Shown: piece by piece, positions 16,002-30,670 of the stretch | Numbering within the stretch: the first letter of the stretch is position 1 | Layout: each line of letters opens with the position of its first letter | Origin: a virus | Virus record (IMG/VR): IMGVR_UViG_3300044626_000768 | Location: 1-35,013 of that record | Direction: 5' to 3' (one strand) | DNA: 35,013 nt | Notes under the pieces: generated by a model | Database searches by the model: none | What the model saw: only the letters and a program-made list of their open reading frames with translations | What the model was told of the DNA's origin: nothing | Position numbers and translations under genes: made by a program

Positions 16002-16838
16002 CTATACCTTTTCGTTGACCAAATTGATTCCAGTTCCTATCAATCCACCTATGCCTAATGCAGCTGATAATGCTCCTGCAAATCTAGCAGCTTTTAATAC
16101 ATTGTCAGTCTTTCCTAAAACCTTTTCGCTTAATTGACGATAGGCAAGGTCATCTATTAAATGATAGCCTCTTCCTAACAAATCAGCACCTATCCTATTA
16201 TCTTTAACAAAAACAGTCTTTCCACCAATTTCTAATGGATTAAAACCTGCTTCTTCAAACCGTCTTACTCTTGAACTTTGTAGTCCATCACTATCTTCTG
16301 GTGCTGCTACATACAATCTTTTATTATTAGGATCTGCCAAGAAATCAGGTAATCTTATTTTTGCTTGGTCAATTTCTTCCCTAATTTCTCTTAACCTTTT
16401 ACGATCTATTCTTTCACTTCCAACACTCGTATTACCGTCAACCCTTAGTTCTACAACTCTACTAGGATTTACTCCTAAACTAACTCTCTTTCCTTTATAA
16501 ATGTTGTCAGCCGCCTCAGTGCCAGGTACTGCCCATGTTCTATCACGCCAGCTAAGTGCCATCTTTTGTGCAGCTTCTGGTGCTACAGAGGCTAGCAATG
16601 GAAAGCTTATTCCTGCACTAACAGCACCGATGCCTGTCCCTATCGCATTATCAGCAATGTCAGATAATTCATCAATCTGATCTTCTTTCCTTCTCAGTTG
16701 TAAAATCAACGTAGCAGCATCAGGATTATCCCTAACAATACGTTTCCATTCCGCATTGCTAAAGCTACCCGCTTCTCTCACTTCTCCAGTTAGCGGGTCG
16801 ATCAATTCAGGTATCCTGTTGCTATATTCTTGTTCCAT
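16002..16838 (-). CDS. hypothetical protein with two hydrophobic segments
   Basis: 278 aa. Hydrophobic Gly-rich segments lie near residues 66-86 (GTGIGAVSAGISFPLLASV) and 253-273 (AGALSAALGIGGLIGTGINL), with a soluble basic region between them. ATG 16838 shares one base with the upstream stop. No family recognised; the paired segments suggest membrane contact. Confidence 0.55.
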   Translation of the reverse strand: MEQEYSNRIPELIDPLTGEVREAGSFSNAEWKRIVRDNPDAATLILQLRRKEDQIDELSDIADNAIGTGIGAVSAGISFPLLASVAPEAAQKMALSWRDRTWAVPGTEAADNIYKGKRVSLGVNPSRVVELRVDGNTSVGSERIDRKRLREIREEIDQAKIRLPDFLADPNNKRLYVAAPEDSDGLQSSRVRRFEEAGFNPLEIGGKTVFVKDNRIGADLLGRGYHLIDDLAYRQLSEKVLGKTDNVLKAARFAGALSAALGIGGLIGTGINLVNEKV

Positions 16839-18166
16839 TAAAATTCCTCTACTCCTATCCCTCTCATTCGTTTTACCCTTTCAGGCCTATTGTCTTCATA
16901 TACATAGAATTTGCCTTTTACTTCGTCAACGGCATAATTCTTATCATAGACATTATCTAACCACCGGGTTAGTGCATCATGATTGTCAAATACTTTTACG
17001 TGACTTCTAGGTATAGGCCCACCCGGAGGACCTACCGCTTCTTCGGTAAATCGTCCCTTCTGCTCTAGGTCGAGTCCTAATTGTTTTGGTACATTCGTCA
17101 TAGATTTATTTCTTAGCGCCCTTGCGCCTAGCTTCATCCCAGCCCCCAATGCAGCAGTAGCCGCAATAGCTTTGAATGGTATTCGATAACCCAGGAATTC
17201 TATTTCGCCTACTGGGTCATCAGGTGTCTCTGTCGTGCCATGCAAGATGCCTAAACTGGTCGGTACATCAATAGCTACCTCCTTTGCTAGAGGTGCTGTT
17301 ATGCCGCCTAGCAATGCTCCAGCGATTCTATTTCTACCAGTCGCATTACTAGCTACTGCGCCAGCGATCGCTCCTAATGGCGCACTGGTCTGGACTGGCA
17401 TATTTTCAAGACCAAAGAATGTATTTTCTTGTTTTGCGGCTCTAAATCTGGCATACTCTTCTGGCGTTACATCTGGCCGTTCTGCCAGAAACTGCTCTTC
17501 CGGCAAAATTCTACCCGTTCTATTTAGGAAGTATCGTGCAGCAATTTCAGCCGCTGGATTGTTACTCTTTGTCCGATTTAAGACAATTTCTACTTCGCCA
17601 GTCTCTGGATTAACTTGCTGGGTTTCTTTAGGGAATAGGACCGAATATCCCTTAGGCCTACCTGCTTCATCCAAGTTGGTTAAGTCAATATTGCCTGTAG
17701 CTAATTCCATGCCAAGGGTAAGGCCTGTAGCACCTAGTGCAGCCCCTAAAGGCCCTACGCCTTCGCTCTTCATGATATTGCGTCCTACCAGGCCTGTAAT
17801 AGCCTGGGGCGCATTAATCAACCACCATAGATTACGAGTTCCATCGCCAATGTAGTCACCAGCTACCTGTCCAACCCGTTCAATTCCTTCATCAGCCAAT
17901 ACATTACTACGTTCTCGTTTGGCTGCTTTTAACGCTTCTAAAGCAGCCATATCGCCAGGGTTAGCGGCTAATGCCTCCCTGGCCTGCATCATCTTTCTAT
18001 TTGCATCACTTTTTCTAATATTTAATATTCTTGCCCGTTCCAATTGTTCCTTACTAGGAGCGGACATAGCGCCTCTAACGACTGACATGCCTAGGTTTTG
18101 CCTCATTGAGTTTACTAATGTATCCCAACGAGGCCTAAGCCTAGACACTATTGTGTTATCGACCAT
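16838..18166 (-). CDS. hypothetical virion-type protein, first gene of the block
   Basis: 442 aa. The N-terminus is basic and helical (ERARILNIRKSDANRK; AAKRERSNVLADEGIE). Several Ala/Gly hydrophobic stretches follow, including PLGAALGATGLTLGMEL, APLGAIAGAVASNATG and AIAATAALGAGMKLGARAL. No enzymatic motif is seen. As first gene it lies 104 nt downstream, in the transcription direction, of the 57-bp repeat at 18270-18326, which may carry the operon's promoter. Confidence 0.6.
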   Translation of the reverse strand: MVDNTIVSRLRPRWDTLVNSMRQNLGMSVVRGAMSAPSKEQLERARILNIRKSDANRKMMQAREALAANPGDMAALEALKAAKRERSNVLADEGIERVGQVAGDYIGDGTRNLWWLINAPQAITGLVGRNIMKSEGVGPLGAALGATGLTLGMELATGNIDLTNLDEAGRPKGYSVLFPKETQQVNPETGEVEIVLNRTKSNNPAAEIAARYFLNRTGRILPEEQFLAERPDVTPEEYARFRAAKQENTFFGLENMPVQTSAPLGAIAGAVASNATGRNRIAGALLGGITAPLAKEVAIDVPTSLGILHGTTETPDDPVGEIEFLGYRIPFKAIAATAALGAGMKLGARALRNKSMTNVPKQLGLDLEQKGRFTEEAVGPPGGPIPRSHVKVFDNHDALTRWLDNVYDKNYAVDEVKGKFYVYEDNRPERVKRMRGIGVEEF

Positions 18167-18269: not shown

Positions 18270-18326
18270 TAAAAAAATACCCCTTTTCCACTCTTTTTAC
18301 TTGTATCGAGCATCCCACCACCCCTC
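18270..18326 (-). repeat. 57-bp inverted repeat, copy A (operon leader)
   Basis: Exact reverse complement of 23216-23272. Read on the minus strand it contains GGTGGTGGGATGCTCGATAC and ends in GGGGTATTTTTTTA, pointing at the structural operon. Copy B points at the plus-strand small-gene array. The shared orientation relative to each operon suggests a common promoter or leader; no standard -35/-10 pair is obvious. Confidence 0.8.
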
Positions 18327-18359
18327 TACACCCAATTCAATAACATTAGTTATTACTAA

Positions 18360-18392
18360 CTCGTAAATTAAACTATATTTACGAGCTTTTTT
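18360..18392 (+). terminator. terminator-like hairpin just before the FHA gene (attenuator candidate)
   Basis: CTCGTAAAT and ATTTACGAG form a perfect 9-bp stem with an 8-nt loop, followed by CTTTTTT. It ends 6 nt before ATG 18399, so any plus-strand transcript reaching the FHA gene must pass it. This leaves no room for a ribosome site unless the structure opens. Confidence 0.6.
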
Positions 18393-18398
18393 ATCCCT

Positions 18399-19070
18399 AT
18401 GACAACCTATAGCAATATAAGTCTATCTTGTATTCATCCAAGCGCTTGCAACTATTTCTCTAAAATCCTTGAATCCACAGGTGATCCTAAGGAGTTATGG
18501 TTTATTGGGCGTGGAACACCCCCGCCTTCTTACCCTATTGATCATTTTATTAAACTAGATAGTCCATACGTGTCTAGGCAACATGCTTGCCTTCGATATT
18601 CAATTATCGATGATTACTGGCAAATTAGACACATTGGCAGTACCCATCCTACTTGGCTAAATGGTACAAAACTAACTGCAAATGAATGGCATGATATTAC
18701 CGAAGGTGCCATTGCTAAGTTTGCAGTAGACGAATGTAAGCTTATATTTTCTTACTACATCGATGATACTATCCAGAATCTACCCTTTTTTGACACTACA
18801 GAAAAGTTACAACAATTACCATCTACCGAGCAGGTTATTGTTCCTGTTCCAGCGTCAACTGTTATTGTTGAGCAAGATCATAAAACACCTTTTTGGCAGG
18901 TAGCTTTTATTGATCAGGTATTTGATGAACTTAGCTCTTTATCAAATACCAAGCTTATAATTTACTTAATGTTCTTTTTGGCTGGTCTAACAATCTTTTT
19001 GTTATACGGTGCCGCAAGCATTCCCAATTTACCTGCCGTTAATCAAGAGGCTCCCCATACTTTTGATTAG
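18399..19070 (+). CDS. FHA-domain membrane protein
   Basis: 223 aa. Residues 34-115 form an FHA domain: IGRG at 36-39, IKLDSPYVSRQHA at 51-63 (Ser59, Arg60, His62) and GSTHPTWLNG at 80-89, the residues that read phosphothreonine. A linker follows, then one strong transmembrane helix at about 185-205 (LIIYLMFFLAGLTIFLLYGA) and a short tail. FHA domains recruit threonine-phosphorylated partners, so it could dock a host or phage phosphoprotein at the membrane. It is followed after 7 nt by the 1266-aa gene, probably co-transcribed. No clear ribosome site. A phage FHA membrane protein is unusual. Confidence 0.85.
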   Translation: MTTYSNISLSCIHPSACNYFSKILESTGDPKELWFIGRGTPPPSYPIDHFIKLDSPYVSRQHACLRYSIIDDYWQIRHIGSTHPTWLNGTKLTANEWHDITEGAIAKFAVDECKLIFSYYIDDTIQNLPFFDTTEKLQQLPSTEQVIVPVPASTVIVEQDHKTPFWQVAFIDQVFDELSSLSNTKLIIYLMFFLAGLTIFLLYGAASIPNLPAVNQEAPHTFD

Positions 19071-19077
19071 GTGACCC

Positions 19078-22000
19078 ATGGTTCTTACAATTGTTGACGA
19101 CCTTAGTCGTTTTGCTAATTTACCTCCTAAAATCCAAGACCGTATAAAACAAGCCCAAGACATTTATGGGATCGATTATTCTCGTCGTACTCGTCAACAA
19201 GAAGCTTTTCTTGCTTCTGTAGAAGATGAATTAGAACGTGGCATCTATGATTCAGTCCCTACGGCAGCTTCTGGTAGGCGGGCGTTCAGGCCTGTTAGTC
19301 AACCAGTTGTTGTAAACCTTCCTACTCCAGCGCAAGAAGTAGCTTATCGGATTATTAAGCCAGATCCGACTAAGCCTAGACCGACTGACTACATAAGTCC
19401 TCAGTATTCAGACGATGAATTAGAAGCTGTAAACGAATTTACAACTCCGTTGTATCCGCCTAACCCTCAGTTTAAACGTGGTTATATAACAGAAGTCAAT
19501 ACTGATTATGAGCCTCCGCTTTATCGGCGCAGAAATCTTTCCGAGTACTCTCAAGATGCAGCGTCTGCTGGTGCTACACCACAACGTTCTAATGTTCCTA
19601 GGCGGCTACAGAGTGAGTATGACCGTCAAATGGAATCATTGATTGATGAATTTAGTGATCAACTAAGGAGTACTCGTGCCCCTGCGCCTACATCAGCTTC
19701 TGTAGGTGACACTCTTTATAGTATCTATGACAATTTGCTTTCCCGTCGCGGAGTTGCCTTATCAGGTTCCGACTTACCTCCTGAACTAATGAGAGCAGGA
19801 GCTAATGAAGAAGTTCCTTATATTCGTGCATCAGATGATAAGGGTAGGGCCTCTAAGAAGAGTGTTATACCTCTTCCTTCTGAGATAGACCTCACCAAAG
19901 AATTGTCTACCGCTGCGGCGGCTCAGCCTGGTTTGGTCACTCAATATCAAGACCGACGGCTCCTCAGAGATCCAGATCAACCTTATGCATCAAAGCCATT
20001 TGACTATGCTACAGGTGAATCCCTGTACAATGCTGGCATTACAGATAGAGTTGACAGTGAATTATCTAATCTTGTTAGGATTGAAGGCCGCAACGAATTT
20101 GCTGGTGTAGATGAATTTGGCAGAGGCATTCTTTACGCCAGTCTAATTGATAGAACTGACCCCGACTTTCTTAGAACATTTGACGATCGTAAACGCTACA
20201 CTCAAGCGGCTGGCTGGGCAGGTCTTGCTAGCGGACAAGCAAGACTTCCTAGAATTGTTCAGGGTAATCTTTTACAAGAGGCTCCATTTGGTGAGTCCGG
20301 CCCTGAATACCTTGCAAGAGTCAATCAATCTCGGGCAGAGGCCCAGGCTACGGAGACTGCTAATCGTGCCCTACGTGATCAGATTGCTCGTGAGCGTATC
20401 CTCCAGGATCGTGCTGAAGCCGCTTCTCTAGGACAGACTAATGCTATCATCCAACCTATTCAACCAGGTGCCCTTACTCGCGAGGAAGCCGCAGAAGGCG
20501 CTTTTGATGAATATGCAGATGCTATTAATGCTTCTTTGCGGGTAAATCCTCAGGCGGACATATTAGCCCCTGGCTTATTCTCTCTTGGCTCTGGCGCGCA
20601 CAACGTAACTCAACGTACCCTAATTAGACAAACACCTGAAGGGCCTGTTTCAGTCGTTGGTGTTCCTGATAATGCTGGATTATCCTACCCGGCTGGCTTG
20701 ACTCCGGTTCTCCAAAACCCTATTAGCCTGCGTACTCAGTCTGTCAGCTATCGCCCTGGTGCATTTTATCGTGATACTAGCACTAAGCCTGTCCAAAGCG
20801 ATTTGGTAGGGGCTGAAGAGACAATTGAGGGTCAATCTGAAGCCGCTCGACGCCCAGCCCTCCTTGCTTTTGATGTTAATCCTGAAGATCCAGGTGGTTT
20901 ACCCCAGGGTGAATTTGCTAGACGCTTATTCAAACCTGGTGATCCGCTACAATTTAGCGCTCAAGTTAGTAAAGGCCAGGCTGCACTCAGAGGTCAGATG
21001 CAAAGCATCATTGATCCCATTGCAGCTCCTACTGTAGTTCGTGGCATGGACCCCCTAACAGCAGCTCAGCGGAGTATTGATTACCTTGATGAACAAATGA
21101 CCCTCCTAGAACCATTTGTTCAAGCTGGTCGCCAAATATCAGCTTCTACTCCTGGCAAAGCTAAGAACAATGAATACAATATCTACCTCCAACAAGCAGA
21201 CTCCCTGCGCCAACAACGCCAACAACTAGCTTCATTACTTCGTGACTATGAAGAGCTAGAAGTTGCTAAGGAGCGGTTTGACCAAAATCTAAGTGCAGCA
21301 AGTAATTTAGCTATTTCACCCCGCAGTGCAGAGACTGTGACTGGTCTAACGGCTGATGGGCAAGAGGTTACTGTACCTCTTCAGGACTTTATGAAGGACC
21401 AACGGGCTCAACCTACGGTTAGTCGCTTTGGTATTCCTCTTCAGTCTCAAGGGCCTCGTGCTATACCCGGAGATGCGTCAGGTGAATACTTCGAGTATGG
21501 CAATCCTGACGCTGTTAGCATTGTTTCTGACTGGGATGAGCCTGTATTTAAGGCATTAGTCGCCGCAGACCCCACGATTACCCCTAATCAGGCCCGTCGT
21601 GGCGTTCAATGGCGTCAAGTTCGTGTTCCTAACAGCAAAGCAGTCAAGATTGAAGTTGTTAACCCTGGTGTTCCAGTTGCTGATGCGTCTGGCGCTCCGA
21701 TTACTTACAATCCAACCCAATTGATTGGCTATGATTCCCAGGTAGGGCCTTATGTAGAGCGTAAGTTGCCCGATAATATTGAAAGTAACCGCCAAATGCG
21801 GCAAGAACGGCTTGCTGCTGGTCGTGAAGGCTATACTCCCCCACCTATTAGTCCTAATATTCCTATTAAATACAACCCTGCACGACCTGGTTATCCCTTT
21901 GCCTTGCCTGAAATGCGTCGGACAGCCTATACTCCCACGCCTGAACCCACTTCAGACATTATTCTACCCCTCGCTTTAGAGGCAGATAGGTTATCTCCAG

Positions 22001-22878
22001 CCATTCCTGGCCCTAATCTACCTCTGAATCCAGGTTCTGAGCCTGCTCCACGGCTACAACCCGCTGGTGTACTCCGTTATCAAGACCCTTCTGCTACTCG
22101 TTCTGGTCGTTCTACGCCCTTCGAGGACCAAATTGCTGACCTTTCTCAGGTAGATTCACTCTCTGCTGCTAATCCTGCTGGTCGCAATACCTTATTTAAC
22201 CTTGCCAATAGCCTTGGCATTACTGGTACATCCTTGATGGACTCTTCTAATGACTTTGGAAGACTCAAGGATGACATTAAAGCTACCCTGACGGCTCGTT
22301 ATCCAGACCGTTTTGCGCGTAATGCTCGGACTTTTGTCACTCGCCTACCCGCTGACTTCTCCGATCCTAAGGATATTCAAGTATCTATCGCTCGTTCTAT
22401 CGATGGACGGGTTGACACTATTCCCGATCCAGAAAATCCACAGGCTACAACTACCCGGTATGTGCCGGGGTATCAAGTAGAACAACTTAAATTCCAAAAC
22501 CTTGATCCTAACCAGCTCATGCTTGGGCCTGGTGCTAATGATCGTCGCCAGCCCCAATACACTTTGTCTGCTATTGCTTCTAGGATGCGTCAAAATCCAG
22601 AGACAGCTAAGAATATCTTTTCTTACATTGACGATCAAACTCGTAGCCTTAACTCTAGTATTGCGAGTAACCAAGTTGCTGTACAACGACTTACTGATCT
22701 TCTCAATTCTCCTGATCAGCTTCGCGCTACTTTGGCCGGTTCTGTTAATTCTAACCGTAACCTTGCCAATATTCGCAATGCTCTCAGAGACCATGAATTT
22801 CAAGTATCGCGCTCTACAGCTTATAGAGACAACCTTCAGTCTAATGCTCAAGCTATTCGTCAGATGCTTGGCTATTGA
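19078..22878 (+). CDS. 1266-aa protein of unknown function
   Basis: One intact frame, the largest in the window, 7 nt after the FHA gene. The first 60 residues are helical (DRIKQAQDIYGIDYSRRTRQ), then most of the chain is Pro/Gln/Arg/Tyr-rich and looks extended or disordered, with helical pieces near 640-700 and at the C-terminus. No signal peptide, transmembrane helix or enzyme motif is seen. It may be a large internal virion or tail protein, or a partner of the FHA protein offering threonine sites; both are guesses. Opposite-strand frames inside it are shadows. Confidence 0.7.
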   Translation: MVLTIVDDLSRFANLPPKIQDRIKQAQDIYGIDYSRRTRQQEAFLASVEDELERGIYDSVPTAASGRRAFRPVSQPVVVNLPTPAQEVAYRIIKPDPTKPRPTDYISPQYSDDELEAVNEFTTPLYPPNPQFKRGYITEVNTDYEPPLYRRRNLSEYSQDAASAGATPQRSNVPRRLQSEYDRQMESLIDEFSDQLRSTRAPAPTSASVGDTLYSIYDNLLSRRGVALSGSDLPPELMRAGANEEVPYIRASDDKGRASKKSVIPLPSEIDLTKELSTAAAAQPGLVTQYQDRRLLRDPDQPYASKPFDYATGESLYNAGITDRVDSELSNLVRIEGRNEFAGVDEFGRGILYASLIDRTDPDFLRTFDDRKRYTQAAGWAGLASGQARLPRIVQGNLLQEAPFGESGPEYLARVNQSRAEAQATETANRALRDQIARERILQDRAEAASLGQTNAIIQPIQPGALTREEAAEGAFDEYADAINASLRVNPQADILAPGLFSLGSGAHNVTQRTLIRQTPEGPVSVVGVPDNAGLSYPAGLTPVLQNPISLRTQSVSYRPGAFYRDTSTKPVQSDLVGAEETIEGQSEAARRPALLAFDVNPEDPGGLPQGEFARRLFKPGDPLQFSAQVSKGQAALRGQMQSIIDPIAAPTVVRGMDPLTAAQRSIDYLDEQMTLLEPFVQAGRQISASTPGKAKNNEYNIYLQQADSLRQQRQQLASLLRDYEELEVAKERFDQNLSAASNLAISPRSAETVTGLTADGQEVTVPLQDFMKDQRAQPTVSRFGIPLQSQGPRAIPGDASGEYFEYGNPDAVSIVSDWDEPVFKALVAADPTITPNQARRGVQWRQVRVPNSKAVKIEVVNPGVPVADASGAPITYNPTQLIGYDSQVGPYVERKLPDNIESNRQMRQERLAAGREGYTPPPISPNIPIKYNPARPGYPFALPEMRRTAYTPTPEPTSDIILPLALEADRLSPAIPGPNLPLNPGSEPAPRLQPAGVLRYQDPSATRSGRSTPFEDQIADLSQVDSLSAANPAGRNTLFNLANSLGITGTSLMDSSNDFGRLKDDIKATLTARYPDRFARNARTFVTRLPADFSDPKDIQVSIARSIDGRVDTIPDPENPQATTTRYVPGYQVEQLKFQNLDPNQLMLGPGANDRRQPQYTLSAIASRMRQNPETAKNIFSYIDDQTRSLNSSIASNQVAVQRLTDLLNSPDQLRATLAGSVNSNRNLANIRNALRDHEFQVSRSTAYRDNLQSNAQAIRQMLGY

Positions 22879-22937
22879 CATCCTTCTCATCTCATGAGAC
22901 ACTATATTTAGTCGAAAGACACTTTTTACCTAAAAAG

Positions 22938-22976
22938 GGGGCACCCGAAGACCAGCTGTCTTTAGGCTAGTGCCCC
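22938..22976 (+). terminator. hairpin after the 1266-aa gene
   Basis: GGGGCAC and GTGCCCC close a hairpin with a smaller AGAC/GTCT stem inside, followed by AAATATTTTTA. Probably the first of three successive terminators ending the FHA pair. Confidence 0.55.
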
Positions 22977-23008
22977 AAATATTTTTACCCCCCTCTTCAC
23001 TTGACTCA

Positions 23009-23048
23009 TAGATCTTAAGGTGTATTCCTTAAGATCTATTTTTATTTC
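23009..23048 (+). terminator. strong intrinsic terminator
   Basis: A perfect 12-bp stem TAGATCTTAAGG/CCTTAAGATCTA with a 6-nt loop and TTTTTATTT tail. Confidence 0.8.
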
Positions 23049-23068
23049 CACATCACCCCTTCCTAACC

Positions 23069-23099
23069 GTTAATTTTTCAGTATTAACTTTTTGTTAAC
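23069..23099. promoter_or_regulatory. GTTAAT/ATTAAC/GTTAAC cluster, operator candidate
   Basis: Three related half-sites at 23069-23074, 23083-23088 and 23094-23099, the first two inverted. They might bind a regulator of the region; no protein is assigned. Confidence 0.25.
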
Positions 23100-23125
23100 C
23101 TACTTTACTGCTATGCAGTTATGCA

Positions 23126-23156
23126 CTCATCTATTTATTTAGAGATGAGGCTTTTT
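23126..23156 (+). terminator. third terminator-like hairpin
   Basis: CTCATCT and AGATGAG pair with a 10-nt loop, followed by GCTTTTT. Confidence 0.6.
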
Positions 23157-23215
23157 ATGTATTGGGTTTATTCCAATAGTTAAAAGTGTTCCTACAAAAA
23201 CCCAAATTGGGGGTG

Positions 23216-23272
23216 GAGGGGTGGTGGGATGCTCGATACAAGTAAAAAGAGTGGAAAAGGGGTATTTTTTTA
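23216..23272 (+). repeat. 57-bp inverted repeat, copy B (operon leader)
   Basis: Exact reverse complement of 18270-18326, placed after three terminators and before the small-gene array, so it is well placed to hold the array's promoter. TATATT follows directly at 23271-23276, as a possible -10. Homology fades beyond both ends, apart from a shared CCCAATT on one side. Confidence 0.8.
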
Positions 23273-23603
23273 TATTCCGCCACTCTTTAGCTGTTTGCGA
23301 TCGCATAGGGGTAGCGAAGCGGGGATGATGCGACTCGTGAACAAAGCTGGCTTGGGTTGAGTATCAACCGACAGGCACCGGGAGTCCGAGCCATACCCTT
23401 GAGGGCAGGGGAGACAACCCTATGTAAGGGATTGGGTGTCACGGTTGCGATCGCATCTGAGCGTCAACTGTGGAGTCCCTGCTGGTTATTACCCAGTACG
23501 GCCCCTGGCCTACTGGGATTTTAGGGTAGGTGTTTAAGAGGTAGGGAGCAATCCCTATCTAGTCTGTGATTTGCGATCGCAGATTAGTCCCTCTTACTAG
23601 ATA
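23273..23603 (+). other. non-coding leader region rich in HIP1 sites
   Basis: No open frame of credible length. It contains three GCGATCGC octamers, a hairpin TAGGGAgcaaTCCCTA (23542-23557) and a first copy of the B hairpin. The stretch 23330-23450 is GC-rich and may fold, but I see no tRNA cloverleaf or known RNA family. It is the 5' leader of the small-gene array, or an uncharacterised RNA. Confidence 0.4.
23492..23517 (+). repeat. family B hairpin, copy 1
   Basis: CCCAGTA and TACTGGG enclose an inner GGCC/GGCC stem; followed by ATTTTA. This copy has no gene directly behind it; a second copy lies 86 nt further. Confidence 0.75.
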
Positions 23604-23629
23604 CCCAGTACGGCCCCTGGCCTACTGGG
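23604..23629 (+). repeat. family B hairpin, copy 2
   Basis: Same sequence as copy 1, ending 34 nt before ATG 23664. Confidence 0.75.
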
Positions 23630-23663
23630 ATTTGTTTGTAGTTGTTCTTAAGGAGTATTTCAC

Positions 23664-23897
23664 ATGCGTTACTTTCAATGCCGTGAGGAATTGAGACAGT
23701 TCAAAGAGGCGTGCCCCCAGTGGCATGTCTTTCCTGACCCGGAGGCTCCGGGCTGGATTGTTGTCCCCCACTTTCTTCCTTCCAAGAATTCCCGCGAACT
23801 TACTGCCCTGCGCAGTGAATTGGCGACAGTTGGTATTAACCTCAGGGTTGCCTTCAACCCACAACTCAAGCGCTGGGATATTCTCGGCGCAGTCTAG
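23664..23897 (+). CDS. small hypothetical protein (first array gene)
   Basis: 77 aa with leader TTAAGGAGTATTTCAC before the ATG. Starts MRYFQCREELRQFKEACPQW, ends LKRWDILGAV; a compact alpha/beta protein with several Trp and Pro. No family recognised. Hairpin B lies upstream and hairpin A 7 nt after the stop, the standard cassette plan. An early host-takeover or anti-defence role is plausible from context only. Confidence 0.65.
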   Translation: MRYFQCREELRQFKEACPQWHVFPDPEAPGWIVVPHFLPSKNSRELTALRSELATVGINLRVAFNPQLKRWDILGAV

Positions 23898-23904
23898 TAT
23901 TCAT

Positions 23905-23934
23905 CACCCCAGGGTCTACTCAGGCCTTGGGGTG
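23905..23934 (+). terminator. family A hairpin, copy 1
   Basis: CACCCCAGGG pairs with CCTTGGGGTG around TCTACTCAGG. It starts 7 nt after a stop codon. No T-run here, so termination is uncertain. CATTGTC follows. Confidence 0.6.
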
Positions 23935-23977
23935 CCTATTCGCATTGTCTACCTTCATTCTTTTTGAGGAAAATCTC

Positions 23978-24310
23978 ATGTCTATACAATCTCTTCTCTC
24001 CCAGTATTCCAACCTCCAAACTGAGACTCAAATATTAGAGTCTCTTAGGGAGGAGCTTAAATTATTTACTCCTGTATTTACTCCTGATAATCCTTCTCCA
24101 GTTGAAGCTTTCGAGCGCTTTATCGAAGCGCTCAAAGTTACTGACTGCGTTACTGACTGCAAAAGTCAGTTTGGCTATGTAATCTTTACAGATGAATCTA
24201 GCCATGAAGAGGTTCGCGCAGCTCTTATTAAAGAATGCGAGGAAATTATTAAAAGAGTGGAGGCTCATCGAGCCCTCCTCATGTCCGCCATCAGGGCGGC
24301 TACTTGCTAA
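23978..24310 (+). CDS. helical hypothetical protein
   Basis: 110 aa from ATG 23978, with TTGAGGAAAATCTC upstream; an earlier TTG in frame would run through hairpin A. Helical and acidic, with Cys at 46 and 50 in DCVTDC and a final coiled segment (KECEEIIKRVEAHRALLM). No family recognised. Confidence 0.6.
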   Translation: MSIQSLLSQYSNLQTETQILESLREELKLFTPVFTPDNPSPVEAFERFIEALKVTDCVTDCKSQFGYVIFTDESSHEEVRAALIKECEEIIKRVEAHRALLMSAIRAATC

Positions 24311-24319
24311 CTTCTTTAT

Positions 24320-24352
24320 CACCCCAGGGTCTAACCACTAGGCCTTGGGGTG
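24320..24352 (+). terminator. family A hairpin, copy 2
   Basis: CACCCCAGGG ... CCTTGGGGTG with a 13-nt loop region, 9 nt after the previous stop. Confidence 0.6.
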
Positions 24353-24367
24353 GCTATTCCCATTGTC

Positions 24368-24403
24368 CTCTGTGTTGGTTGCGATCGCAATCCACGCACA
24401 GAG
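24368..24403 (+). repeat. family C hairpin with HIP1 in the loop, copy 1
   Basis: CTCTGTG and CACAGAG flank TTGCGATCGCAA, itself a palindrome containing GCGATCGC. It lies between hairpins A and B. Confidence 0.65.
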
Positions 24404-24409
24404 TATAAT

Positions 24410-24435
24410 CCCAGTACGGCCTCTGGCCTACTGGG
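24410..24435 (+). repeat. family B hairpin, copy 3
   Basis: CCCAGTACGGCCTCTGGCC then TACTGGG and ATTTTTT; 35 nt before ATG 24471. Confidence 0.75.
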
Positions 24436-24470
24436 ATTTTTTCTTAGTTGAACCACTTACGGAGAAGGTT

Positions 24471-24767
24471 ATGAAAGTTGAAAAAATGAAAGTTGTTGTC
24501 TGTGACGTCCGTCACGGGCAATTGATACACTCTCCTGTTATTCCCGGGATTGAATGGTTGGAAATACCCAGCACCCGTACCGAAGCGGGTTCCTATTTTC
24601 AGTACCTTTCGGCTGCCCGCATTCCCGAGTCTCAGTGCTTGGGGTTGCCGGAGCACTGCCGGGTTGCAGACTTTGAGCACGTTGTCTCCCTGAACATTCA
24701 GGGAGAAGATCTTGAAGTCTGTTACCAGGATGCCGAAGGGCATCCTATCCAGTCTACTATTTGGTAG
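24471..24767 (+). CDS. small hypothetical protein
   Basis: 98 aa from ATG 24471 with GGAGAAGGTT directly upstream. Starts MKVEKMKVVVCDVRHGQLIH; beta-rich, ends in VCYQDAEGHPIQSTIW. No known motif. The cassette ends with a conventional terminator and then hairpin A. Confidence 0.6.
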   Translation: MKVEKMKVVVCDVRHGQLIHSPVIPGIEWLEIPSTRTEAGSYFQYLSAARIPESQCLGLPEHCRVADFEHVVSLNIQGEDLEVCYQDAEGHPIQSTIW

Positions 24768-24795
24768 ATTCGGCGTTACCCCCCCCACCCTCCAC

Positions 24796-24819
24796 CCCTA
24801 GCCCTCGCTGGGGGCTTTT
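24796..24819 (+). terminator. intrinsic terminator
   Basis: AGCCC and GGGCT pair, followed by TTTT. From this T-run to 24864 the sequence is repeated at 26685-26734. Confidence 0.6.
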
Positions 24820-24834
24820 GCTTAAATAGGCTAT

Positions 24835-24864
24835 CACCCCAGGGTCTACTCAGGCCTTGGGGTG
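24835..24864 (+). terminator. family A hairpin, copy 3
   Basis: Same 30-nt sequence as copy 1, followed by CATTGTCC. Confidence 0.6.
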
Positions 24865-24881
24865 CCTATTCGCATTGTCCA

Positions 24882-24913
24882 CTGTGCCAGTTGCGATCGC
24901 AATTCACGCACAG
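24882..24913 (+). repeat. family C hairpin with HIP1 in the loop, copy 2
   Basis: CTGTG and CACAG flank GTTGCGATCGCAAT. Confidence 0.6.
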
Positions 24914-24920
24914 AGTATAG

Positions 24921-24946
24921 CCCAGTACGGCCCCTGGCCTACTGGG
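24921..24946 (+). repeat. family B hairpin, copy 4
   Basis: Canonical B sequence, 35 nt before ATG 24982. Confidence 0.75.
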
Positions 24947-24981
24947 ATTGTTCCTTCAATGTAATTAAGGAGTATTTAGTC

Positions 24982-25227
24982 ATGAATGAATTTGTTTCTG
25001 CGACCCGCTGTTCTTGTTCTCAGACTTTGTTTGTTTTTGATGAGGAAACTGGCATCCAGTATCCAATCCATCCTGTTCCTCCGCAGGACAATAGGATATG
25101 CACCCAGATTCTTTATCATGTTCAGAACGAAATAGATTTAGCTACTGGCTGGATCGCTTGCGATGATTTAGAACGAGGCAAAGACATACAGTTCTTGCCT
25201 CTTGCTTATCATCTTTGGCATAAGTAA
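24982..25227 (+). CDS. small hypothetical protein
   Basis: 81 aa, ATG 24982 preceded by TTAAGGAGTATTTAGTC. The N-terminus has CSC after RC (ATRCSCSQTLFVFDEETG), followed by DNRICTQI; four cysteines in all, so metal binding is possible but no classic zinc ribbon is formed. Framed by hairpins B and A. No family recognised. Confidence 0.6.
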   Translation: MNEFVSATRCSCSQTLFVFDEETGIQYPIHPVPPQDNRICTQILYHVQNEIDLATGWIACDDLERGKDIQFLPLAYHLWHK

Positions 25228-25233
25228 TTCTAT

Positions 25234-25267
25234 CACCCCAGGGTCTAACTTACTAGGCTCTGGGGTG
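25234..25267 (+). terminator. family A hairpin, copy 4
   Basis: CACCCCAGGG ... CTCTGGGGTG with a longer loop, 6 nt after the stop. Confidence 0.6.
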
Positions 25268-25283
25268 TCTATTCGCATTGTCC

Positions 25284-25317
25284 TCTGTGCCAGTTGCGAT
25301 CGCAACTCACGCACAGA
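25284..25317 (+). repeat. family C hairpin with HIP1 in the loop, copy 3
   Basis: TCTGTGC and GCACAGA flank AGTTGCGATCGCAACT, so the loop sequence is a longer palindrome here. Confidence 0.65.
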
Positions 25318-25324
25318 TTAGATA

Positions 25325-25350
25325 CCCAGTACGGCCCCTGGCCTACTGGG
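25325..25350 (+). repeat. family B hairpin, copy 5
   Basis: Canonical B sequence, 34 nt before ATG 25385. Confidence 0.75.
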
Positions 25351-25384
25351 ATTTCTTTGTAGTTGTTCTTAAGGAGTATTCCAC

Positions 25385-25603
25385 ATGTTCCATTTCTTCA
25401 GTCATTATTTCAGCACAGCTACTGCCTGGGTCTTAGACCCTTACTGTTGGCTTCTTATTGCCCTAGCTAGTTTAGTCCAATTCTTTCTACCTGGGTGCAA
25501 ACCCCAGGTTAACCCCGATTACACAATCGCATGGGGTTACTACCCCCATGTCTTTTTTATCAGTACCACACTGGGGTTTCTCGGCTTCCTGAGCCATTGG
25601 TAA
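25385..25603 (+). CDS. small membrane protein
   Basis: 72 aa with leader CTTAAGGAGTATTCCAC. Two hydrophobic segments, about residues 20-36 (CWLLIALASLVQFFLPG) and 53-71 (YPHVFFISTTLGFLGFL), predict a two-pass inner-membrane protein. Small phage membrane proteins of this kind may act in superinfection exclusion or lysis control; nothing here shows which. Confidence 0.65.
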   Translation: MFHFFSHYFSTATAWVLDPYCWLLIALASLVQFFLPGCKPQVNPDYTIAWGYYPHVFFISTTLGFLGFLSHW

Positions 25604-25620
25604 GCCTCCTAGTTTCTCAT

Positions 25621-25649
25621 CACCCCAGGGTCTATCTAGGCTCTGGGGT
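25621..25649 (+). terminator. family A hairpin, copy 5
   Basis: CACCCCAGGG ... CTCTGGGGT then TCCTTTTG, a short T-run. Confidence 0.55.
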
Positions 25650-25700
25650 TCCTTTTGTCGTTGCCAGCACTTCCGCTGGTATTGATTTAAGGAGAATAAT

Positions 25701-25874
25701 ATGCTGGTAATTCGCTTTCACAACGATAACTCAGTCACGCCTCTCCAAGGCGCCAACCTTGGCACTCTTGTCCCCGTTTACGGGGATCTCCAGAAGTTAA
25801 TAGCGCTTGCCCGCAAGCGCAGGGAACCCGTCAAGAAGCAATATGCGGGCAATCCGCGACTTCTTGACTACTAA
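25701..25874 (+). CDS. 57-aa basic hypothetical protein
   Basis: ATG 25701 with TTTAAGGAGAATAAT upstream. Starts MLVIRFHNDNSVTPLQG and has a basic middle (LARKRREPVKKQYAG). No family recognised. In place of hairpin B the leader has a short CCAGC/GCTGG hairpin. Its cassette position and strong ribosome site support it as a real gene despite its size. Confidence 0.6.
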   Translation: MLVIRFHNDNSVTPLQGANLGTLVPVYGDLQKLIALARKRREPVKKQYAGNPRLLDY

Positions 25875-25881
25875 TCCTTGT

Positions 25882-25915
25882 CACCCCAGGGTCTATTAAC
25901 TCAGGCTCTGGGGTG
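25882..25915 (+). terminator. family A hairpin, copy 6
   Basis: CACCCCAGGG ... CTCTGGGGTG then CCTTTTG, 7 nt after the stop. Confidence 0.6.
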
Positions 25916-25932
25916 CCTTTTGCTGTTGTCTA

Positions 25933-25964
25933 CTGTTCGTTGTTCGCATTGATAATGTGAACAG
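25933..25964 (+). repeat. family D hairpin, copy 1
   Basis: CTGTTC and GAACAG flank a loop containing GTTGTTCGCATTGATAATG, then CGACTTTT. The second copy has the same loop but a different, still complementary stem. Confidence 0.6.
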
Positions 25965-26006
25965 CGACTTTTAGTTCATTTAATCTTGTCCAAGGAGGAC
26001 AAACTC

Positions 26007-26192
26007 ATGCAATTCATTACTTATTTGACCACTTCGGGGCCAACTAAAGCTCAGGCTGAGCTTTTCTGGTACAACCTTTCTGGTTGCCGTGACGGCTACC
26101 AGGGCCAACCCTGGTACTACGCCGGGGTTGTCACAGAATACGATGTTTACGAAAGTGCTGAGGAGGCTATCGAGGCTGATAGCCTAAATTAG
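26007..26192 (+). CDS. 61-aa hypothetical protein
   Basis: ATG 26007 with CAAGGAGGACAAACTC upstream, the strongest ribosome site in the array. Starts MQFITYLTTSGPTKAQAELF, has aromatic-rich GYQGQPWYYAGV in the middle and an acidic end (ESAEEAIEADSLN). Overall acidic, as small phage inhibitors often are; function unknown. Confidence 0.6.
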   Translation: MQFITYLTTSGPTKAQAELFWYNLSGCRDGYQGQPWYYAGVVTEYDVYESAEEAIEADSLN

Positions 26193-26201
26193 CTTTTCTA
26201 T

Positions 26202-26234
26202 CACCCCAGGGTCTAATCACTAGGCTCTGGGGTG
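26202..26234 (+). terminator. family A hairpin, copy 7
   Basis: CACCCCAGGG ... CTCTGGGGTG then TCTTTTGG. Confidence 0.6.
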
Positions 26235-26245
26235 TCTTTTGGCAT

Positions 26246-26278
26246 TGTCCATCGTTGTTCGCATTAATAATGTGGACA
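26246..26278 (+). repeat. family D hairpin, copy 2
   Basis: TGTCCA and TGGACA flank nearly the same loop as copy 1. The changed stem stays paired, which supports an RNA structure. Confidence 0.6.
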
Positions 26279-26311
26279 GCGACTTTTTGTTCACTTATTA
26301 CAGAGGCAAAG

Positions 26312-26635
26312 ATGCTTTACCTGCAGCCAGGAGAAAAGATAACAGCCAATCGGATCGCTATCGCGTTTGATGAGCGATCTGCTATCGACCTCGGCTACCT
26401 TAATGGTCAGCTTGTCTTCCAGGTCTCCGTGAACGGAAGCCTTGTGGGCTATATTATGCCTCCGCGTGACGGGGGTGCCTGGGGGATAAACCTTTCTCAG
26501 GGAGCGCATGAGCAAAGAGGATATTACCGCCCTATCCTGAGGCAAGCTAACTCTCCGTATGGAGTTGCGATAAGCCATTCCCAGGCGGATATGGATGATC
26601 TAGTCTGGGATCTGCAGTTTTTTGCTCCTCTTTAA
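26312..26635 (+). CDS. small hypothetical protein
   Basis: 107 aa from ATG 26312 (CAGAGGCAAAG upstream). Beta-rich: MLYLQPGEKITANRIAIAFD, LVFQVSVNGSLVGYIMPPRD, then a Gly-rich middle and an acidic end. No family recognised. Followed by a terminator and hairpin A in the same arrangement as the 24471 cassette. Confidence 0.6.
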   Translation: MLYLQPGEKITANRIAIAFDERSAIDLGYLNGQLVFQVSVNGSLVGYIMPPRDGGAWGINLSQGAHEQRGYYRPILRQANSPYGVAISHSQADMDDLVWDLQFFAPL

Positions 26636-26670
26636 GCAACTTACTCCACCCTACCCACCCCACCACCCCG

Positions 26671-26689
26671 GCCCCATGGCTGGGGTTTT
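26671..26689 (+). terminator. intrinsic terminator
   Basis: CCCC and GGGG around ATGGCT, followed by TTTTG; the downstream sequence repeats that at 24815-24864. Confidence 0.5.
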
Positions 26690-26704
26690 GCTTAAATAGG
26701 CTAT

Positions 26705-26734
26705 CACCCCAGGGTCTACTCAGGCCTTGGGGTG
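26705..26734 (+). terminator. family A hairpin, copy 8
   Basis: Same 30-nt core as copies 1 and 3. Confidence 0.6.
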
Positions 26735-26744
26735 TCTATTCCTA

Positions 26745-26769
26745 TTGTGCGATCGCTACCCACGCACAA
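26745..26769 (+). repeat. family C hairpin, divergent copy 4
   Basis: TTGTGCG and CGCACAA form the stem; HIP1 here overlaps the stem and loop rather than lying wholly in the loop. Confidence 0.5.
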
Positions 26770-26777
26770 TACCATTA

Positions 26778-26803
26778 CCCAGTACGGCCTCTGGCCTACT
26801 GGG
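26778..26803 (+). repeat. family B hairpin, copy 6
   Basis: Canonical B sequence followed by ATTTTT, but 67 nt before the next ATG, twice the usual distance. Confidence 0.7.
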
Positions 26804-26870
26804 ATTTTTCACATAATTAACCGCATCGCTACAGCGGTTAATACCCATACAACTATCGAGAGAGAAAGAG

Positions 26871-27302
26871 ATGAAAAGCTATACCCGCCTCATCATGATT
26901 ACATTGACCACTGCCTGGACCACTTGGTACCAGGCTTCCTCCTATGCCTGCGCCATCACCGCATGGCTCGTCCGTGCGATCGCCTTTATGGCGATCTTGA
27001 CCTACCTCCTTGGCAAGGAAGCTCGTGTCTTTGTAGACTCCTTCCTGGAGTCTTGCATGAAGTCACCAACCTCCATGCCCCTTACTCTTCCTACTCCTGC
27101 GCCTACTCCTACTCTTACTACTGCTGCTGAGCCTGCGGGGGATTACCCCGTCCAGGCGCAGATACAACAATTTACTCCTACTCTTGCAGACTTCACGTCT
27201 GCACAATTAAAGGCTATTGCCAAGGAGCATAAGCTCCCTCGGTATAGCCGAATGAATAAGCAGCAGCTCTTTGACGCACTGCTTGAACTTGATTTGATTT
27301 GA
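26871..27302 (+). CDS. membrane protein with Rho-N/SAP-like C-terminal domain
   Basis: 143 aa, leader GAGAGAGAAAGAG. A hydrophobic N-terminus with a transmembrane helix at about 27-47 (ACAITAWLVRAIAFMAILTYLL), a Pro/Thr linker at 65-90, then a helical domain at 106-140 (TSAQLKAIAKEHKLPRYSRM, QQLFDALLEL) matching the Rho N-terminal or SAP fold that binds nucleic acid. It may tether DNA or RNA at the membrane. The AlkB gene's ATG follows its stop immediately (TGAATG), so the two are coupled. Confidence 0.7.
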   Translation: MKSYTRLIMITLTTAWTTWYQASSYACAITAWLVRAIAFMAILTYLLGKEARVFVDSFLESCMKSPTSMPLTLPTPAPTPTLTTAAEPAGDYPVQAQIQQFTPTLADFTSAQLKAIAKEHKLPRYSRMNKQQLFDALLELDLI

Positions 27303-27926
27303 ATGACCCGCCTTGGGAGCAAACTAACCAAGGCATTACGAAGTATCAAAATGATTGAAGAATACTTAGACTACGCCACGCAAGTGTCTCTAGTCTCCTT
27401 GGCTAGAGATATTTGCGTCAGGGCACCCCTGTATAGGGCAGAAATGCCCAACACAGGGAAACCATTCACCTACTACCAGTCTGGTGCCGGATGGGGCTGG
27501 ACATCTGGCCATGGTGGCGGCTACCGCTACCAAACCACCCATCCTGTTACTGGGGCTACCTTACCGCAGATTCCTGATCAACTACTTGACATAGCCCGTA
27601 AACACGGGCTGGAGGCGGATAGCCTCCTAATTAACTGGTACACTCCAGGGTCATCCCTGGGGCTGCACCGGGATAAAGACGAGAAGTATCGGCATCCAAT
27701 AGTTTCCATCTCACTGGGAGATCATGCGATATTCCAGTTGGGTGGAAACATTCGCTCTGCCAGAACTACTGACATAGAGCTGATCTCTGGATCAGTTCTA
27801 ATTATGTCTGGCAACAATCGTTCCCGCTTCCACGGGATCAAGACAATCTTACCTAACACCTGTATCCACCCAGGCTTGCTTAAGCAGCCTGGCCGGATCA
27901 ACCTGACTCTCCGCAGGAGTCAGTGA
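27303..27926 (+). CDS. alkB: AlkB-like 2-oxoglutarate/Fe(II) dioxygenase
   Basis: 207 aa. The iron-binding triad is His122 and Asp124 in LHRDKDE and His177 in SRFHGIK; Arg198 and Arg204 in GRINLTLRR bind 2-oxoglutarate. PIVSISLGDHAIFQLGG (132-148) and LISGSVLIMSGNNR (160-173) match AlkB core strands. AlkB enzymes repair methylated bases by oxidative demethylation. All catalytic residues are present, so activity is expected. It is translationally linked to the upstream membrane protein. It may protect phage nucleic acid from alkylation or act on a modified host target; substrate is unknown. An internal ATG at 27351 is an alternative start. Confidence 0.93.
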   Translation: MTRLGSKLTKALRSIKMIEEYLDYATQVSLVSLARDICVRAPLYRAEMPNTGKPFTYYQSGAGWGWTSGHGGGYRYQTTHPVTGATLPQIPDQLLDIARKHGLEADSLLINWYTPGSSLGLHRDKDEKYRHPIVSISLGDHAIFQLGGNIRSARTTDIELISGSVLIMSGNNRSRFHGIKTILPNTCIHPGLLKQPGRINLTLRRSQ

Positions 27927-27935
27927 ACAAGAATG

Positions 27936-27961
27936 CCCGGTACGGCCTCTGGCCTACCGGG
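27936..27961 (+). repeat. family B hairpin, variant copy 7
   Basis: The stem is CCCGGTA/TACCGGG in place of CCCAGTA/TACTGGG: a compensated A-T to G-C change. It ends 18 nt before ATG 27980. Confidence 0.7.
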
Positions 27962-27979
27962 TTTCATCGAGGTAATCAA

Positions 27980-28066
27980 ATGATCGAAGGAATCATCGCT
28001 TTTAAGCTATTACTTTTTGCCTATCGAGTCTGCGATCGCAGCACTCGAACAAAAGACAAAAAGTAG
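27980..28066 (+). CDS. 28-aa small protein
   Basis: ATG 27980 with GAGGTAATCAA upstream; encodes MIEGIIAFKLLLFAYRVCDR and a basic tail TRTKDKK. A short hydrophobic start with a positive C-terminus suggests a membrane-associated microprotein. Its reality rests on the ribosome site and on hairpin B on either side; it contains a HIP1 site. Confidence 0.4.
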   Translation: MIEGIIAFKLLLFAYRVCDRSTRTKDKK

Positions 28067-28094
28067 ACACGCAATAGTCCCATCTTCGAACCTG

Positions 28095-28120
28095 CCCGGT
28101 ACGGCCTCTGGCCTACCGGG
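28095..28120 (+). repeat. family B hairpin, variant copy 8
   Basis: Same compensated CCCGGTA/TACCGGG stem with a TTTTTT tail, 34 nt before ATG 28155. Confidence 0.7.
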
Positions 28121-28154
28121 TTTTTTAGAAAGAGTTAACTTGATTTGATTTGAT

Positions 28155-28292
28155 ATGAATACCACAGAACCCACTGAACTTCCTACGATTCCCGTGACTG
28201 CTGACCCCTTGTCGGCAGGGCTCTTCGTCGCTACGGCGATCATCCCAATCACCGCTGGAATTATCCAGCTAAAGAAAAAGAATAAGAAATAA
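28155..28292 (+). CDS. 45-aa single-pass membrane protein
   Basis: ATG 28155; polar Thr/Pro/Glu N-terminus, then a hydrophobic helix at about 20-37 (LSAGLFVATAIIPITAGIIQ) and a basic tail KKKNKK, giving an outside-N, inside-C topology. No strong ribosome site. Fits the cassette plan, with hairpin B before and a hairpin A variant after. Function unknown. Confidence 0.5.
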   Translation: MNTTEPTELPTIPVTADPLSAGLFVATAIIPITAGIIQLKKKNKK

Positions 28293-28296
28293 CATC

Positions 28297-28325
28297 ACCG
28301 GCTTGGGGCATCTGCTCCAGCCGGT
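28297..28325 (+). terminator. family A variant hairpin, copy 9
   Basis: ACCGGCT/AGCCGGT closes an inner GGGGC..GCTCC stem; followed by CCCTTTTCGCATTGTC. It is in the same place as family A with a different sequence. Confidence 0.55.
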
Positions 28326-28362
28326 CCCTTTTCGCATTGTCGAATTAAGGAGAATTTTATTT

Positions 28363-28530
28363 ATGTATATCCACCACCAAGAAACTTCCCTTAACCCAGG
28401 TTCCTGGGTTACTACCTACTGTCCGGATCGCAGGACGGCAAGGGCTGTAATGTTGCGCCTTACGGCCAACAATCTCCCTTTCATGGTGGCCCCTGACCAC
28501 CTCACCCCTTGGAACTATTCCTATAACTAA
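28363..28530 (+). CDS. 55-aa hypothetical protein
   Basis: ATG 28363 after TTAAGGAGAATTTTATTT. Starts MYIHHQETSLNPGSWVTTYC, includes a DRRTARAVMLRL helix and ends in aromatic NYSYN. No family recognised. It shares one transcript with the next gene, 13 nt away with its own AAGGAG. Confidence 0.55.
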   Translation: MYIHHQETSLNPGSWVTTYCPDRRTARAVMLRLTANNLPFMVAPDHLTPWNYSYN

Positions 28531-28543
28531 GGAGAAAAACACT

Positions 28544-28726
28544 ATGCTTCAGATAGATTACGGTTTTGACCTGCAATCCTTCGATGTTGAAGATTCAATG
28601 ATTGATATACTTCACCAGAATTTTGACACTCGTGAATGGACTACTACCTCGCTCCATGAGAGCGAAGTCTTGAACTTCCAAAATGAACTTGACTCTCTTG
28701 GCCTAGACTACTTACCTGTAGTTTAG
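28544..28726 (+). CDS. 60-aa acidic hypothetical protein
   Basis: ATG 28544 with AAGGAGAAAAACACT upstream. Strongly acidic (MLQIDYGFDLQSFDVEDSMI, then FQNELDSLGLDYLPVV), possibly a DNA-mimic or inhibitor type by charge alone. No family recognised. Confidence 0.55.
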   Translation: MLQIDYGFDLQSFDVEDSMIDILHQNFDTREWTTTSLHESEVLNFQNELDSLGLDYLPVV

Positions 28727-28736
28727 GCATCTGATC

Positions 28737-28765
28737 ACCGGCCTGGGGCAACTGCTCCAGCCGGT
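28737..28765 (+). terminator. family A variant hairpin, copy 10
   Basis: ACCGGC/GCCGGT with inner GGGGC..GCTCC, followed by TTTCTTTTCTCATTGCC; 10 nt after the stop. Confidence 0.55.
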
Positions 28766-28775
28766 TTCTTTTCTC

Positions 28776-28810
28776 ATTGCCGAAAGGCATTAAACCAATC
28801 TAAGGTATTC
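28776..28810 (+). repeat. SSB leader repeat, copy 1
   Basis: A 35-nt leader, identical to 29330-29364, containing GCCGAAAGGC and TCTAAGGTATTC; it runs to the start of the first SSB gene. Confidence 0.8.
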
Positions 28811-28812
28811 TT

Positions 28813-29280
28813 ATGTCCTCACGTGGCCTAAACGTTTGCACTCTCGCCGGCAACCTCGCCGCTGACCCCGAGATTCGTACCATTCCTCTTCGGGATGGTA
28901 CATCTACTCAGGTAGCCGATCTAACCATCTATGTCGATCGCATTCCCAGTCGTAAGGAGAATGACAGCTTTACTGTCGATATTACCGTATGGGAAGGCTC
29001 TGCCGCCTGGCGTAAGCTAGGCTACATCAAGAAAGGTTCCCTGATTATTGCCAGTGGAGCCATTGATGCTTCTCCATACGTCAGGAAGGTTGACAGTCAG
29101 GCCCGTGCTGGCTTGAAGCTTAAGGCTACTGACATCTTCCTTGACTCCAGTCCAAGAGTTGAAGAGTCCGACCCTCAGACTGAAGCTTCTCTTGAGGAGC
29201 AAACTCCTGTACAGGAGGAAGCGCCTAAAACCCGCCGCCGTTCTTCTAAGAAGGAGGAATTAGCGGCAACTGTTAGCTAA
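28813..29280 (+). CDS. ssb: single-stranded DNA-binding protein, paralogue 1
   Basis: 155 aa, one OB-fold. NVCTLAGNLAADPEIR at the N-terminus is the SSB signature first strand, followed by ADLTIYVDR, FTVDITVWEGSAAWRKLGYI and KGSLIIASGAI. The C-terminus is not the usual acidic tip: after a Glu-rich linker it ends basic (TRRRSSKKEELAATVS), so it may not recruit the usual SSB partners. It covers single-stranded DNA in replication or recombination. The paralogue downstream keeps the canonical tip. Confidence 0.88.
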   Translation: MSSRGLNVCTLAGNLAADPEIRTIPLRDGTSTQVADLTIYVDRIPSRKENDSFTVDITVWEGSAAWRKLGYIKKGSLIIASGAIDASPYVRKVDSQARAGLKLKATDIFLDSSPRVEESDPQTEASLEEQTPVQEEAPKTRRRSSKKEELAATVS

Positions 29281-29291
29281 TTAACTCTATC

Positions 29292-29325
29292 GCTGGGTAG
29301 GATATAGTTCCTGCCCAGCACCTTT
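29292..29325 (+). terminator. terminator between the SSB genes
   Basis: GCTGGG/CCCAGC with inner AGGA/TCCT, followed by ACCTTTTTC. It limits read-through, so the second SSB gene probably has separate control from the repeated leader. Confidence 0.65.
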
Positions 29326-29329
29326 TTCT

Positions 29330-29364
29330 ATTGCCGAAAGGCATTAAACCAATCTAAGGTATTC
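29330..29364 (+). repeat. SSB leader repeat, copy 2
   Basis: Identical to 28776-28810; the match continues through the first 30 or so coding bases with one or two differences. Confidence 0.8.
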
Positions 29365-29366
29365 CT

Positions 29367-29756: not shown

Positions 29757-29772
29757 TCCCTTACTCTAGTTG

Positions 29773-29798
29773 TCGCCCCTAGCATTAGCTGGGGGTGA
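29773..29798 (+). terminator. family E hairpin, copy 1
   Basis: TCGCCCC pairs with GGGGTGA around an AGC/GCT inner stem, followed by TTTCTT. Confidence 0.6.
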
Positions 29799-29826
29799 TT
29801 TCTTGTTGCAATTCACACATTTAACT

Positions 29827-30210: not shown

Positions 30211-30216
30211 GCACTG

Positions 30217-30242
30217 TCACCCCTGGCTAATGCTGGGGGTGA
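30217..30242 (+). terminator. family E hairpin, copy 2
   Basis: TCACCCC/GGGGTGA around TGGCTAATGCTG, followed by TTTCC. Confidence 0.6.
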
Positions 30243-30277
30243 TTTCCAACTCTAATTCATCCATTTACTTTTTACCT

Positions 30278-30601: not shown

Positions 30602-30644
30602 CTAGATTCCAATAATTGGGACTTCTTGCCTTAGTTTTATTTTG

Positions 30645-30670
30645 TCACCCCTGGCTAATGCTGGGGGTGA
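30645..30670 (+). terminator. family E hairpin, copy 3
   Basis: As copy 2 but followed by six T, a good terminator; GCATTGTCC follows. Confidence 0.7.

Follow-up and report, generated by a model that had tools for sequence, protein, structure and literature searches.

A perfect inverted repeat of 57 nt, the two copies of which point outwards into two divergent operons, brackets an FHA-domain gene and a gene for a 1266-aa protein in the window (the whole 35,013-nt stretch of DNA analyzed here), and it most likely represents one regulatory element that occurs twice and faces outwards each time. The exact 57-bp repeat with copies 4.9 kb apart, first noticed in a sequence-only reading of the window, was confirmed: 18270-18326 and 23216-23272 are reverse complements at 57 of 57 positions. 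This is far beyond chance: when the window was shuffled 40 times under a first-order Markov model, the longest exact inverted repeats measured 13-16 nt. The pair can be extended to longer arms of 68 nt (18270-18337 and 23205-23272; 97% complementary, spacer of 4867 nt), with the extension running inward and containing two mismatches within 11 nt at the inner (upstream) edge of the exact repeat, whereas the downstream (outer) edge is sharp. The same reading had proposed a search for more copies, which, run on the 35-kb record, returned none beyond the two; a scan of the window for degenerate extra copies likewise gave nothing above shuffled queries. A survey of inverted pairs of 20 nt or longer covered the window and 108 loci (nearly all S-EIV1-like kin and some overlapping), 109 sequences each 8 kb or longer, and the matches listed include only one other, a short-range hairpin of 32 nt at the end of locus L027. 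With the exception of this hairpin, exact inverted pairs in eight kin loci that span the corresponding junction were all at most 16 nt long.

The window is a linear virus record of 35 kb (G000) and a fragment of a divergent S-EIV1-like cyanophage. Its portal and terminase share 35.2% and 38.6% identity, respectively, with those of Synechococcus phage S-EIV1 (KJ410740), and the exons of a structural gene, putatively named capsid-like, match S-EIV1 at 57-72%; membership of the S-EIV1-like group is thus borne out by the homology and shared order of the terminase, portal and capsid-like genes. The S-EIV1 lineage also has a small-gene array and a structural operon that diverge, as in the window, but differs in that its large gene is co-oriented with the structural genes and in that S-EIV1 lacks such an inverted repeat. 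Eleven HIP1 sites (GCGATCGC) occur in the window, which we take to point to a cyanobacterial host; nine of them fall within the array part at 23297-28032. Three group I intron matches were found in the one capsid-like gene (4505-4894, 5306-5633 and 5915-6190, minus strand), two above the Rfam gathering score and one just below it, and the matching stretch for its exons in S-EIV1 is 30860-31987 (L005 coordinates), which is annotated there as two opposite genes. The features around the repeats are as follows.

16838-18166, minus strand: 442-aa gene at the head of the leftward structural operon, with homologues in S-EIV1, L003, L004 and others
18270-18337 (exact part 18270-18326), minus strand: repeat copy 1, reading leftward into the structural operon
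18360-18391, plus strand: hairpin resembling a terminator or attenuator, with a T-run, that separates copy 1 from the FHA gene (stem 18360-18385; fold z -5.66)
18399-19070, plus strand: 223-aa FHA-domain protein (PF00498, 4.6e-09)
19078-22878, plus strand: 1266-aa protein of unknown kind, a possible positional counterpart of the large gene of kin
23008-23046, plus strand: terminator-like hairpin ending the FHA/1266-aa unit (13-pair stem 23008-23039; fold z -4.92)
23126-23156, plus strand: second hairpin with T-run directly before copy 2, read from the sequence and absent from the terminator-scan listing (z -1.97 for 23110-23165)
23205-23272 (exact part 23216-23272), plus strand: repeat copy 2, reading rightward into the small-gene array
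23664-23897, plus strand: first ORF of the rightward small-gene array, with AAGGAG ahead of it

Both copies are intergenic and each lies 5' of one long operon, with 104 bp between copy 1 and the start of the structural operon (18166) and 391 bp between copy 2 and the start of the array (23664). Each copy is therefore positioned upstream of, and oriented into, a different operon as initially described, an arrangement that is also a feature of phage intergenic promoter repeats. Both copies have terminator-like hairpins on their inner side. The gene between the copies that had been taken for an FHA gene does encode a genuine FHA domain, and its 223-aa product carries a hydrophobic stretch close to the C terminus. 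The array itself has further repeated elements: families of hairpins recur between its small genes at 23488-31095 on the plus strand (e.g., CCCAGTACGGCC..TGGCCTACTGGG, 8 copies), and S-EIV1 and L004 also carry repeated intergenic elements, of a different family in each case. The array also includes a gene for an AlkB-like 2OG-Fe(II) oxygenase of the DNA repair type (27303-27926, plus strand; PF13532, 1.2e-37) and a tandem duplication of single-strand-binding protein genes, two adjoining copies that have matching upstream sequences (28813-29280 and 29367-29756, plus strand).

We give about an even chance to the repeat being a single promoter-sized regulatory element that is used twice, facing outwards, at the head of both operons. 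Leftward transcription of the structural operon would start at copy 1 and rightward transcription of the small-gene array at copy 2, with the FHA/1266-aa pair forming a separate rightward unit closed by the hairpin terminators at its end. In kin, the two operons diverge at one shared intergenic junction; in the window the FHA/1266-aa pair would split this junction, and each operon would keep its own copy of the element. Identity of the copies would probably be kept by selection or gene conversion. The proposal that the repeat serves as a shared promoter or leader thus fits the anatomy (operon heads, inner hairpins, sharp downstream edge), but it found no support in a consensus scan, in which the repeat was free of sigma-70 hexamers and promoter-like matches in the region were at chance level (13 found, 12.7 expected). 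A -10-like TATTTT, where the rule for a -10 element is TAnnnT, can be read at the outer boundary, at 23263-23268 and at the mirrored position of copy 1. Several points count against a putative promoter role: 57 identical bases are more than a core promoter requires, the leaders beyond the repeat are unlike each other (104 and 391 bp, with no shared sequence), and operons of early type are usually expressed at other times than structural ones. Sigma region 4 was detected in five of 21 records (E up to 0.001, four of these over the cut-off), the window not being among them, and no published transcription starts in S-EIV1-like cyanophages were found.

The nearest published parallel among the matches listed is halovirus HF2, which has intergenic repeats of 58 bp (class I) and 29 bp (class II), with all of the 58-bp repeats having promoter activity and driving a reporter (PMC8707807). 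HF2 resembles the window in being a tailed virus with near-identical intergenic repeats of similar size at the heads of long transcripts, but differs in its archaeal promoter type with a TATA box, in its several copies, in genus-wide conservation and in that the promoter has been demonstrated (PMC8707807). The window has two copies, none were found in relatives, and the promoter role is putative. Searches for relatives of the repeat gave no match for a 24-mer or 20-mer of it in the viral contig collection or for a 21-mer in the genome contig collection. An 18-mer had two matches (L176 and L177), which share their surrounding sequence and of which the one in L176 lies inside a long coding frame; these two loci were also the only ones among the matches listed when the repeat was compared with 175 loci by blastn-short, and they were judged to be chance matches and rejected as relatives. 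The kin themselves were drawn from profile searches (the best 80 of 339 terminase loci and the best 80 of 591 capsid-like loci), and since the top terminase match among them is only 41% identical, there is no close relative for comparison. The sequence-only reading had named the lack of relatives with the repeat as evidence against its proposal; none turned up in the collections searched, and with the nearest kin this distant the result is not decisive.

The organization of kin loci bears on how this arrangement arose. In all nine that reach the junction (L178, L179, L180, L181, L182, L184, S-EIV1, L027 and L004; of these, L180 is close to L181, and the large gene of L184 rests on a short match), mostly minus-strand small ORFs are followed by a large gene on the structural strand and then by the structural genes. 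One of the seven stretches fetched, L183, was left out of this set as no large gene was found in it. A smaller co-oriented gene precedes the large gene in four of the nine (L004, L180, L181 and L182), and of the 22 loci in which the 442-aa gene has a homologue (some of them near-duplicates), 19 show a same-strand ORF of 400 codons or more upstream of it, the other three being cut short. The window is the exception, with the FHA/1266-aa pair pointing toward the array and away from the structural operon, and inverting exactly 18270-23272 restores the kin pattern. The position and direction of the large gene are maintained across S-EIV1-like phages (L003, L004, L005, L010, L016, L071 and others), while no similarity can be detected between the groups into which its sequences fall.

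Whether the 1266-aa protein is the large protein of kin was addressed by blastp, hmmsearch and hhalign, all of which were negative, and no homologue of this protein was found. The large proteins of kin themselves fall into similarity groups of eight, seven and a pair plus four singletons (two of which are not the large gene), and as they are mutually unrelated at this sensitivity, the non-match of the 1266-aa protein says little. Its amino-acid composition resembles that of the kin large proteins (AUC 0.91), but of the other window proteins used as controls two were as close (0.92 and 0.88) and two were not (0.43 and 0.24), and this likeness was rejected as unspecific evidence of identity. The FHA domain was absent from all 41 kin records searched (S-EIV1 not among them), and comparison of the FHA protein with plasmids and phages gave no match.

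These observations make an old inversion, with the repeat as its cause or its scar, a serious but unproven part of the element's history. By this account 18270-23272 was inverted once and the FHA/1266-aa pair is the lineage's version of the large gene or genes beside the structural operon, which we regard as possible but rather unlikely. Inversions can arise by a mechanism that leaves inverted duplications at the breakpoints, and the route would have been recombination across the repeat or staggered breaks that left an inverted duplicate of the 68 bp at each end; this duplicate would then serve as promoter for the operon that was cut off, which is compatible with the promoter reading. Arguing for it are the large gene running along the structural genes and opposite to the small genes in nine of nine kin loci, the co-oriented upstream ORFs beside the 442-aa homologues, and the kin order obtained on reversing the bracketed segment, including the smaller gene before the large one; inverted duplications at breakpoints are also discussed for Drosophila and herring. 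The lack of sequence homology and the unspecific composition of the 1266-aa protein weigh against it, as does the absence of FHA from kin, which fits acquisition of a new cassette as well, and an old scar should not remain perfect without another function. Composition at four-fold sites further limits its age: AT skew is -0.46 for the pair, -0.40 for the array and +0.10 for the structural genes, and A/T counts of the pair equal those of the array (p 0.43) and differ from those of the structural genes whichever strand of the latter is read (p 5e-26 and 2e-12), although in full four-letter composition the pair differs from the array as well (p 6.5e-08). In seven kin sets, by contrast, the large gene follows the structural genes with AT skew within 0.10, so the event would not be recent. 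With its array-like composition, the pair has not recently been in the regime of the structural operon, and frequent flipping is therefore unlikely. The initial suggestion that the repeat could allow inversion of the FHA segment is accordingly upheld by the orientation of the pair, opposite to that in all nine kin loci, whereas composition, the missing serine recombinase and the lack of any switch logic speak against an active or recent flip.

A segment that flips during growth, by a recombinase or homologous recombination, and acts as a switch is quite improbable. Perfect 57-bp inverted repeats around a 4.9-kb segment whose orientation differs from kin would suit it, and the Mu G segment with Gin, a site-specific invertible phage segment, is likewise a few-kb segment between inverted repeats; unlike such systems, the window has no invertase that could be found, no dyad crossover site and no gene variants exchanged by the flip. 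Serine recombinases were found in none of 21 records, the window and S-EIV1 included, and a tyrosine recombinase in one, not the window, itself a fragment; these hallmarks of site-specific inversion, recombinase and dyad crossover site, were thus not found in the 35-kb record, and the best crossover-like dyad did not stand out from shuffles, as 20 of 300 scored as well or better. The four-fold skew of the pair is strong and one-sided, and a flip would leave both outward copies unchanged and give FHA no evident new promoter. For a mobile cassette with terminal inverted repeats, which is highly improbable, one can cite the repeats at both ends and a cargo not found in kin; against this, the outer flanks carry no direct repeat, i.e., no target-site duplication, neither protein has a transposase-like match, and the repeat was not found elsewhere in the viral or genome collections. 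Almost as improbable is a repeated translation start, in which a 14-codon frame beginning ATG-CTC-GAT (MLDTSKKSGKGVFF) encodes an attenuation leader peptide: both copies have this frame open, and that of copy 1 stops at the repeat edge, but short open frames are common by chance, two identical copies cannot reveal codon constraint, and in copy 2 the frame crosses a HIP1-rich stretch and reaches 43 codons. On their own, the 57 bases showed unremarkable RNA folding (z -0.48 and 0.09); with the downstream flank, copy 2 folded somewhat better than shuffles (z -2.40) and copy 1 did not (z -0.05), and Rfam gave nothing at the repeat. A G-quadruplex role was rejected, as the repeat has no four-run G3 motif and the G-rich tracts of its two copies (G4Hunter 2.16 and 1.64) score below tracts in the array (2.64 and 2.40).

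A regulatory element used twice and an old inversion could also be combined, with a promoter-sized element starting both divergent operons and acting as the hinge of an inversion that uncoupled the structural-side gene unit while the outer promoters were kept; taken as a whole, this scenario is unlikely. Under either reading the components are of known kinds and the layout is uncommon. As a perfect repeat heading two operons, it would offer a direct handle on the promoters of S-EIV1-like cyanophages, and as its copies match the borders of the segment reversed relative to kin, it presents a testable case in which the start of a structural operon may have been rearranged without being silenced.
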